Positions 28,821 through 31,854 of a stretch of 63,405 nt of DNA are shown piece by piece; within the stretch, counting starts at the first letter, position 1; each line of letters begins with the position of its first letter. The stretch is from positions 1-63,405 of the forward strand of contig OMXQ01000003.1 in assembly GCA_900315065.1 (NCBI GenBank), given 5' to 3'. The position numbers and the translations under genes are program-made. The DNA comes from an uncultured Erysipelotrichaceae bacterium. Lineage in GTDB: Bacteria; Bacillota_I; Bacilli_A; Erysipelotrichales; Erysipelotrichaceae. Below the pieces are notes generated by a model. It worked only from the letters and a program-made list of their open reading frames with translations. It was not told the origin of the DNA and ran no database searches.

Positions 28821-29083
28821 TTACTGATCTTCGAGTTTTATTCTTTCAAGCTGCTTCGCGTATTTTTTTACCCTCAGTTTTCTTATTCCTTCACTGTGCC
28901 AGGGTTCTTCCGGCGCAAGCTTCACGCGTTCAGGCATATCAGCTAATAACTTCAGTTGTTCTCTAAAAAGAAGCGAATATTCCTTTACAGCTTCAGTATT
29001 AAGAAGTTCTTCTTTGATATACTGATTATTTCCATAACCTGATATCTTGCCTGGCTGGTTAACTTAACTTTGTATTGCTCCAT
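28821..29083 (-). pseudogene. RelE/ParE-type toxin, frameshifted
   Basis: The ATG at 29083 shares one base with the antitoxin stop (TGATG), the usual toxin-antitoxin arrangement. The first frame reads MEQYKVKLTSQARYQVMEII, a typical RelE/ParE start. It then runs out of frame after about 21 codons. In the next frame YIKEELLNTEAVKEYS, LADMPERVKLAPEEPW and GIRKLRVKKY continue the toxin pattern to TAA at 28821. One missing base explains both. The end after KKY does not look like the family, so the C-terminus may be altered too. The toxin is very likely inactive. Confidence 0.7.
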
Positions 29084-29382
29084 CAGACACCTAATTTCTT
29101 ATCAATTTCATCAAACACTTCATTGACATTAAAAGAATCATCTGACTTAGCCTGTTCAAGTCCTTTTGCCATCATGGAATTATATTCTGATTTGGACATA
29201 TGAACTGTTTCCTCAGGAAGTTCAATTATAAAAGGAATTCCGTGATGCATAATGATCTGGCGATAATAAAGATCAATAGCCACGGACCTGGGAAGACCTA
29301 TCTGCATCAGAATAGATTCTGCTTTCTGTTTAATATCTGCTTCAATCCTTGCATTAACATTTGCTGTTTTTACTGCTGACAT
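29083..29382 (-). CDS. RelB/DinJ-family antitoxin
   Basis: This protein of about 99 residues has an N-terminal ribbon-helix-helix (TANVNARIEADIKQKAESILMQIGLPRSVAIDLYYRQI) and a C-terminal acidic tail that would wrap the toxin (SFNVNEVFDEIDKKLG). The start at 29382 has AAGGAG 8 bases upstream; a start 24 bases earlier lacks one. It would repress its own promoter and neutralise a RelE-type RNase. The adjacent toxin frame is broken, leaving this as an orphan antitoxin. Confidence 0.85.
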   Translation of the reverse strand: MSAVKTANVNARIEADIKQKAESILMQIGLPRSVAIDLYYRQIIMHHGIPFIIELPEETVHMSKSEYNSMMAKGLEQAKSDDSFNVNEVFDEIDKKLGV

Positions 29383-29406
29383 ATAGGCATCTCCTTTTAT
29401 AGTCAA

Positions 29407-29791: not shown

Positions 29792-31222
29792 CTAATTTCT
29801 GAATTCTTTCAGATCTTCCCGGTAGCTGTAGATGCCATGCAGGACGTTGTAAAGCAGGACGCCGGCGCCGTAGAACAGCTCCCAGAAGCGGCTGTCCATC
29901 TTGACGATCTGCGGCAGATGGCGCTCAGGAACATATTTCTTCAGGCTTTCCTTCAGCTCCTCAGGATCGGTCAACAGATCACAATAGACCGCCAGCGTGT
30001 CCGGGCCGATTGTGCAGACCATCGGCAGAACCAGCTTCGTAATCAGTTCAACGATACCTTCCGGCGTTCTGGCAAGATCATATCTGTCCTCGGAGAAATT
30101 GAGCGTCTTCAGATAATTGGCGCATTCGCCGGCGAAATCCTTTTTGCCGAAAACCGGATTTCCGTTGATGACAAGACCGGCACCGCCGACAACGTTGCCA
30201 AGCGGATGATAATAGGCAAGAAGATTGCCGCAGTCACGATGGTTTGCATAATAACCGACCGCTGCCGCATTTGCATCATTGCAGAGGATAAATGTACGGC
30301 CGTATTTCTTTGTAAATTCACCGACGATATCAACATCAAAGATTTTGACTGTCGGCAGCGTGAGACGTCCTTCATAGACAATACCCGGCGCGACGATCGC
30401 GACGCCTTTGATCTCCGGATGACGGATGAACAGAACATCGAGCACATCCTCCAGATCACGCAGATTGATTTCGTCTTTCACAGTAACCCCGCGTTCCATC
30501 GCTGCTTCTTTGTCCGCTCCACGCCAGTGAATTTCGAATTTGCGGTTTCTGCGGATAATGGCCACAATAGCAATTGAACTGTCCCATTCTGGATCGTGAA
30601 TGTCTTCAGCTATCTCTTCTGCCTTTTCCTTTTTATCCAGTTCCTCTTTGATCAGATCGACGGTCTGTGTCACATTGTATGACGCAAATACACTGGCGGG
30701 AATCTGGATGATAACTTTGTCTTTCAGTACTTCCTTCGCCTTTTTAAGCAGATAGCCGATCTGCGGTGCCAGCAGGATCACGTCCTTGTCCTGAGCTGCT
30801 TCAAAGAGTTCGGTATAAGGAACAGCCGAGAACTCATATTCAAGACCGAGCGTTTCCGCAGCACCATTGAGCTTATCCGCAAAGAAAGAAGTGGTAAATC
30901 CGGAGGTGCAGCTTAACAGAACTTTGACCTTGTTGTCGGCGCCTGCTTTCTTCAATGAAGCAATCATCTGTGTGAACAGATCTTTGGCATGGTCAATATC
31001 CTTGATTTCAAAATGCAGGAAGAAAACAGGCTCATCGGATTTCTCTGTCTCGATTGTCAGGGCGCAGATTTCATATTCAAGATGATAGAACTGCACGTGA
31101 CCGACGGCATTCTCCGTTACAAAGTCAATTTCATCTTCGCTTTTTTCATTGATTTCATAAGCCGGATCTGTCTGTTCAAGAATCCATCTCCGGTACATTT
31201 CATACATTTCTCTGTCTGTCAT
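29792..31222 (-). CDS. PTS EIIB-like domain fused to a ROK-family sugar kinase/regulator domain
   Basis: This 476-residue protein has three parts. Residues 1-95 are not recognised. Residues about 97-185 look like a lactose/cellobiose-type PTS EIIB domain: KVLLSCTSGFTTSFFADKL places a Cys at 105 where EIIB is phosphorylated, and DVILLAPQIGYLLKKAKEVL follows. Residues about 215-476 are a ROK fold with CNDANAAAVGY near 314 and GGAGLVINGNPVFGKKDFAGE near 346. The ROK zinc motif is absent, so the kinase activity is doubtful. A sugar-sensing role through phosphorylation of Cys105 is a guess. It is co-transcribed, 5 bases apart, with a histidine phosphatase upstream. Confidence 0.7.
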   Translation of the reverse strand: MTDREMYEMYRRWILEQTDPAYEINEKSEDEIDFVTENAVGHVQFYHLEYEICALTIETEKSDEPVFFLHFEIKDIDHAKDLFTQMIASLKKAGADNKVKVLLSCTSGFTTSFFADKLNGAAETLGLEYEFSAVPYTELFEAAQDKDVILLAPQIGYLLKKAKEVLKDKVIIQIPASVFASYNVTQTVDLIKEELDKKEKAEEIAEDIHDPEWDSSIAIVAIIRRNRKFEIHWRGADKEAAMERGVTVKDEINLRDLEDVLDVLFIRHPEIKGVAIVAPGIVYEGRLTLPTVKIFDVDIVGEFTKKYGRTFILCNDANAAAVGYYANHRDCGNLLAYYHPLGNVVGGAGLVINGNPVFGKKDFAGECANYLKTLNFSEDRYDLARTPEGIVELITKLVLPMVCTIGPDTLAVYCDLLTDPEELKESLKKYVPERHLPQIVKMDSRFWELFYGAGVLLYNVLHGIYSYREDLKEFRN

Positions 31223-31227
31223 TTTCC

Positions 31228-31854
31228 TTATCTCCTGCTGGTTACGTAAACCGTTTTAGACAATTCAGGATCGAGAGCGGAGAAGTCATGAATGATGACA
31301 TCCTCACACATAAAGACGACCCCGTCATAGGAATACTTAAAGATCGCGCAGTTGCCGATACCGGTTTTTCTGGGAATCAGCGTGTAAGCCTGCCATTTGT
31401 TGAAAAACTGTCCGCATGCGGCACCATGAGCTACGATCAGCGTCGTCGTATTATCCGCTGCCATTTTCATAATACCGGTGACTGTATCACTGAATCTATC
31501 CTGGAATTCCTTTTTCCCTTCCCCTCCGTACTGTTTGAACTGATCACCATACGGGAAAGAAGGATTCAGCGACTCATCATGACCTTCCAGTTTGCCAAAG
31601 AACCATTCCTTCAGTCCCCTGATCCTTTCGTAGGGCATCTGCCCGCCGGTAACGATTTCCAGGGTGTCGGCCGCCCGCTCAGATGTGGAAGAATACGCAT
31701 AGTCAAAAGTAATGTTCCTGTCGCGGAACCACTGCCCGGCAACTTCTGCCTGCGCTCTGCCAAGATCCGTAAGAGGAGCATCACACCATCCCTGGATCTT
31801 ATGCGCAACGTTAAACATCGTCTGACCATGACGCATCAGATATAAGGTCTTCAT
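31228..31854 (-). CDS. Histidine phosphatase (phosphoglycerate-mutase-like) family protein
   Basis: This 208-residue protein opens with the family's MKTLYLMRHGQTMFN (phospho-accepting His9). It has SSTSERAADTLEIVTGG near 55, the acid region LKEWFFGKLEGHDE near 82 and the second His in LIVAHGAACGQF near 150. It probably dephosphorylates a small sugar phosphate or related metabolite rather than acting as a glycolytic mutase. AGGAG precedes the ATG. It is the first gene of a two-gene unit with the EIIB-ROK fusion, whose substrate may be linked. Confidence 0.85.
   Translation of the reverse strand: MKTLYLMRHGQTMFNVAHKIQGWCDAPLTDLGRAQAEVAGQWFRDRNITFDYAYSSTSERAADTLEIVTGGQMPYERIRGLKEWFFGKLEGHDESLNPSFPYGDQFKQYGGEGKKEFQDRFSDTVTGIMKMAADNTTTLIVAHGAACGQFFNKWQAYTLIPRKTGIGNCAIFKYSYDGVVFMCEDVIIHDFSALDPELSKTVYVTSRR

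Follow-up and report, generated by a model that had tools for sequence, protein, structure and literature searches.

A 63,405-nucleotide stretch of contig OMXQ01000003.1 from an uncultured Erysipelotrichaceae bacterium, hereafter the window, carries a gene that was predicted from its sequence to fuse a PTS domain of the EIIB type to a ROK fold. This raises the question of what an EIIB domain does in front of a ROK domain, and whether such a protein could read the phosphorylation state of the PTS and alter ROK activity, as originally proposed.

Domain make-up of the EIIB-ROK protein

The open reading frame is present at 29792..31222 (-) and encodes 476 residues. An AlphaFold2 model built from 45 homologues reached a pLDDT of 87.5 and a pTM of 0.70, with only residues 201-209 below pLDDT 50. 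Pfam profile searches returned EIIB and ROK above cut-off, and no credible match for residues 1-97.

The middle domain (residues 98-200; 30623..30931 (-)) is an EIIB domain of the lactose/cellobiose type. Pfam PTS_IIB (PF02302) matches residues 100-178 with E 1.9e-9 and 38.5 bits against a cut-off of 23.6; NCBIfam also gives EIIB, but below its own cut-offs. In the model, residues 98-200 superpose on the solved structures of IIB-cellobiose (1iib; 103 of 103 residues, 1.4 Å) and IIB-chitobiose (2wy2; 1.2 Å), so that profile and fold both support the EIIB identity first suggested for residues 97-185. Cys105 (30908..30910 (-)), the predicted phosphocysteine, is the first residue of the P-loop C-T-S-G-F-T-T-S, and sequence alignment places the P-loop Cys of E. 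coli IIB-chitobiose at the same position. This residue is kept in 58/58 fusions, 7/7 split forms and 23/23 stand-alone relatives (see below), and Cys105, T110, T111 and A-P-Q 152-154 are all 100% conserved across the 58 non-redundant fusions.

A linker of low model confidence (residues 201-211; 30590..30622 (-)) leads into the ROK-like domain (residues 212-466; 29825..30589 (-)). Pfam ROK matches residues 270-367 partially, with E 1.2e-8 and above cut-off, and the modelled domain matches solved ROK structures at Z scores of about 18-23 (top 22.8), among them N-acetylmannosamine kinases, the repressor Lmo0178, the Mlc-EIIB complex 3bp8 and MecR2 (4ija). The zinc motif CxCGxxGC is found in many ROK kinases, though not all. 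It is absent from this region in both sequence and alignment; the region spans about 254 residues and the insertion that bears the motif is missing, which agrees with the ROK fold lacking its zinc motif that had been described from the sequence.

The ROK active site is incomplete. The N-terminal DxGGT phosphate (ATP) motif of ROK kinases (phosphate-1) is absent from the fusions in the alignment. The counterpart of the ROK catalytic Asp and sugar-binding Asn is N315-D316-A-N318 (30269..30280 (-)), with N315 in 49/58 fusions and N318 in 45/58. At the catalytic position the window protein has D316, the fusions have D in 34/58 and N in 22/58, and the Asp is invariant in split (7/7) and winged-helix (15/15) ROK relatives. 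The sugar-binding Glu has its counterpart in A364-G365-E366 (30125..30133 (-)), where Gly365 is invariant (58/58) and Glu366 is kept in 53/58. Because the phosphate-1 motif is missing and only 34/58 fusions retain the catalytic Asp, kinase-like activity is unlikely, and the proposed change in ROK activity is not expected to be enzymatic. With Gly365 and Glu366 kept and the Asp variable, ligand binding by the pocket may persist in some members, and the pocket may have loosened in others. By sequence, the domain groups with ROK regulators rather than kinases.

Residues 1-97 (30932..31222 (-)) form a confident alpha-beta5-alpha domain (pLDDT 88.8). This third was unrecognised at the outset and has stayed so: Pfam assigned no consistent family to it in any of 43 members, a sequence search of solved structures gave nothing credible (best E 0.49), and Foldseek gave no match at E 0.001. 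By fold, it comes closest to the TriTu immunity protein, at Z 8.8 and 2.2 Å across 80 residues with 18% identity, and the profile of that protein reaches E 4e-4, below cut-off, in one stand-alone relative; this likeness is suggestive at most, and we leave the domain unnamed. His70 (31013..31015 (-)) does not vary in any of the fusions (58/58) or split forms (7/7). An EIIA-like identity, to which this His might point, is backed by no fold match and is set aside as an idea only. Across 40 relatives, nearly all of the approximately 100 occurrences of the N-terminal domain lie in frames of at least about 200 residues, with room for an EIIB domain; a single short frame, beginning at base 8 of its contig, departs from this pattern.

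Family, spread and two-gene relatives

The EIIB-ROK fusion is a real protein family. Fifty-eight full-length non-redundant members could be aligned, and the genome of the window itself holds four full-length paralogues that share 30-32% identity with the window protein. Longibaculum muris and Massilimicrobiota are among the carriers of the fusion. Scanning species genomes yielded 54 loci, mostly in Erysipelotrichaceae and their relatives, with some in Coriobacteriia and one in a Selenomonadaceae assembly; even samples gave matches in 10/198 genomes of the class and 20/392 of the phylum, nearly all Erysipelotrichales. Pairwise dN/dS against close homologues was 0.07-0.16 over the whole frame, with comparably low values in all three parts, and since this includes the ROK part, that part too is maintained.

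The N-terminal domain and EIIB also occur together in a stand-alone protein roughly 200 residues long. A gene of this kind lies directly upstream of a winged-helix ROK regulator gene in seven genomes (loci L093, L094 and L184-L188), overlapping it or a few bases apart; Pfam was run on two of these split pairs, with the winged helix below threshold in one, and the winged helix is assigned by alignment. In the same alignment, the EIIB domain and linker of the fusion occupy the place of the winged helix that precedes the ROK core in the split relatives. The fusion itself has no winged-helix domain, residues 1-211 being accounted for by the N-terminal domain, EIIB and linker in model and alignment.

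In a maximum-likelihood tree of the ROK domains, 15 winged-helix ROK proteins (support 98/95), 7 split forms (98/83) and 58 fusions (100/99) each fall on one side of a branch, and both tree and search place winged-helix ROK proteins as the nearest groups to the fusion core. Because these form three groups, the fusion probably arose once, with an EIIB unit replacing the DNA-binding domain. Were the tree rooted among the winged-helix regulators, a regulator would have come first and would next have acquired a separate EIIB partner, before one fusion event put EIIB in the place of the winged helix. Resolution is lower in the EIIB tree, where the fusions again group together, with two stand-alone forms among them. 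At one locus (L189:4952-6360) a fusion gene appears to have broken up into an N-domain-EIIB frame and a truncated ROK frame.

Stand-alone genes have other neighbours as well. Several adjoin a maltose O-acetyltransferase-like gene (L101:6274-7451, L096, L097, L105, L109 and L189), frequently with overlapping stop and start codons, Pfam having confirmed the assignment for L101; this is a hint that the EIIB module serves other partners too. Separately, at L129, L130, L134-L136 and L190-L195 the gene immediately after a zinc-less winged-helix ROK regulator of Erysipelotrichales is PHP-domain-like (checked with Pfam for L130 and L136), and at one fusion locus, L047, a PHP-like gene follows at 10 bp.

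A proposed sensor of PTS state and its alternatives

The genome of the window encodes HPr, a single lac-type EIIA (on contig C61) adjoining two dedicated EIIBs, and another EIIB elsewhere. Among 40 relatives, the PF02255 EIIA was found in 25/25 genomes with the N-terminal domain vs 5/15 without it (Fisher 3.5e-6, and 0.002 within the genus), values that are indicative only as the genomes are not independent; part of the co-occurrence is due to phylogeny. The same genome also carries a fusion of HPr with a D-2-hydroxyacid dehydrogenase (433 aa; L153:430-1731 (-), contig C91). In this second fusion the HARPA phosphohistidine motif is kept in 13 genomes, and HPr in such long frames occurs in 18/25 relatives with the N-terminal domain vs 0/15 without.

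On balance, we favour the reading that the EIIB-ROK fusion is a soluble PTS-state sensor, with a non-catalytic ROK domain that works through protein contact and is governed by the phosphorylation of Cys105. Computation provides its starting points, namely the domain make-up, the conserved Cys and P-loop, the kinship with the pair of EIIB and winged-helix ROK genes, and the EIIA co-occurrence. From there we infer the phosphorylation of Cys105, its effect on the ROK domain and the existence of a contact partner. EI, HPr and a lactose/cellobiose-type EIIA would phosphorylate Cys105 while no PTS sugar is imported, and import would drain the phosphate from it. The state of Cys105 would then alter the packing of EIIB against the ROK domain, or the surfaces exposed, so that the signal passes by direct contact. 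The ROK domain, as putative non-catalytic kin of the winged-helix ROK regulators, possibly still binds a sugar or sugar phosphate. As the fusion has no recognisable DNA-binding domain, its output would be expected through contact with another protein, such as a DNA-binding ROK regulator, perhaps of the winged-helix type, or a metabolic enzyme. The two-gene form and the EIIA co-occurrence strengthen the original idea of a PTS sensor, with phosphorylation as its inferred step.

A more specific and more doubtful version holds that the fusions are ROK anti-repressors without a DNA-binding part, each paralogue reading PTS flux on its own EIIB and capturing the matching winged-helix ROK regulator, as a soluble multi-copy switch in place of the membrane sequestration of Mlc; or, alternatively, that phospho-EIIB phosphorylates a sugar in the ROK pocket.

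Cys105 might instead serve redox chemistry or disulphide-linked dimerisation, with EIIB as a structural dimerisation module and no phosphate acceptor. ROK proteins are usually dimers, which suits this reading. So does the report that in AtxA and RivR dimerisation requires the Cys of the EIIB-like domain (PMC8560693). Set against it are the conservation of G108, T110 and T111 of the P-loop and of A152-P153-Q154, also kept in 91-100% of the fusions, and the retention of EIIA in all sampled genomes with the N-terminal domain, and we consider it unlikely.

It is less probable still that the protein functions as the EIIB of a PTS permease, passing phosphate to an EIIC while the ROK part plays an accessory role. 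Its EIIB fold is complete and the Cys is present; however, separate EIIBs with better scores are encoded in the genome, two next to the EIIA gene, a conserved N-terminal domain and ROK domain would be needless for an ordinary EIIB, and no EIIC was found among the window neighbours scanned.

Phospho-EIIB normally donates its phosphate to a sugar, and a cytosolic phosphotransferase can be imagined in which phospho-Cys105 replaces ATP as donor to a sugar in the ROK pocket. The absent ATP-phosphate motif and the mostly kept N315 (49/58) and E366 (53/58) would fit, but the catalytic Asp is missing from 24/58 fusions and present in every split and winged-helix relative, a pattern that suggests relaxation more than a novel chemistry. 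We know of no ROK protein that takes phosphate from a phosphocysteine, and find the idea very hard to credit.

The gene neighbourhood bears on the last alternative. A histidine phosphatase of the His_Phos_1 family (208 aa; 31228..31854 (-)) lies 5 bp upstream of the fusion, so the pairing noted in the original prediction is real in the window; it is not family-wide, being found in 4/60 non-redundant loci, all close relatives with a similar gap. That the phosphatase dephosphorylates EIIB-ROK or its donors as a two-gene unit draws on this spacing, and is very improbable given the clade-local linkage and the best named NCBIfam matches, CobC and phosphoglycerate mutase, with SixA weaker and all below cut-off. 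Other candidates for a conserved operon partner fared no better: within 7 kb of the 60 loci, in gene calls from a simple longest-ORF procedure that may miss small genes, neighbours cluster only inside subclades and none defines the family. Examples are a Gfo/Idh/MocA gene directly downstream in 5 loci, a small AAA-like protein downstream in 8 and a GH1 gene nearby in 7/60. No PTS operon adjoins the window gene and neighbours vary between clades across the 60 loci, so there is no regulon that would indicate a target. Also noted were a 142-residue P-loop ATPase-like protein encoded about 85-120 bp downstream of the fusion in eight loci (L028, L030-L032, L034 and others), and a RelB-like antitoxin frame (PF04221) at 29083-29406 (-) of the window, between the fusion and a GH3 gene.

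Relation to known systems

Searches of open-licence papers for EIIB-ROK proteins, fusions of ROK with PTS domains and EIIB regulators of Erysipelotrichales found no description of this architecture, and NCBIfam holds no model that spans the whole protein. The fusion suggests a mode of sensing sugar uptake that is absent from the open-licence literature searched, and it would bring a further domain partner to those known to be under PTS regulation. It bears, too, on sugar sensing in Erysipelotrichales, which are common gut bacteria. EIIB control of a ROK protein has one well-studied case, Mlc, which depends on membrane sequestration; here, the existence of one-gene and two-gene forms, many paralogues and soluble proteins would make direct study of an EIIB-to-ROK signal possible.

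Among ROK proteins, the fusion shares its fold (Z about 20) with the ROK kinases and the NagC/XylR-type repressors; unlike these, it has no phosphate-1 motif, zinc motif or winged helix. The nearest ROK sequences found outside the family are the zinc-less winged-helix regulators of Erysipelotrichales, many of them beside PHP-domain genes, which have the winged helix that the fusion does not and lack EIIB. Staphylococcus MecR2 shares the ROK fold (4ija, Z 21.8), binds the repressor MecI and can lack the DNA-binding winged helix (PMC3406092), whereas it has no EIIB and its target is known; it is thus a precedent for a ROK protein that does its work by binding a repressor even when its DNA-binding domain is missing.

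Among PTS-responsive proteins, MtlR, CelR, AtxA and Mga likewise carry an EIIB-like domain, often with a Cys, that serves regulation rather than transport (PMC8560693, PMC3217849), and in MtlR the EIIB-like domain (Cys419) favours activity when it carries no phosphate (PMC3217849). Unlike these PRD regulators, the fusion has neither a PRD, for which Pfam gave no match, nor a DNA-binding domain, and has a ROK core instead.

The closest parallel is Mlc. Mlc and EIICB(Glc) are separate proteins; the EIIB is of the glucose type and membrane bound, and Mlc has both winged helix and zinc motif. The fusion, by contrast, has a soluble, covalently attached EIIB of the lactose/cellobiose type, and its ROK part lacks both winged helix and zinc motif. 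In both, a ROK protein is governed by an EIIB-bearing protein according to phosphorylation state, as proposed here for the fusion. EIIB-to-ROK signalling therefore has a precedent, since the ROK-fold repressor Mlc of E. coli is bound by EIICB(Glc) only when the latter is dephosphorylated (PMC3901232). The parts of the fusion are already known, and its proposed logic resembles that of Mlc and its EIIB, of which it would be a covalent counterpart.
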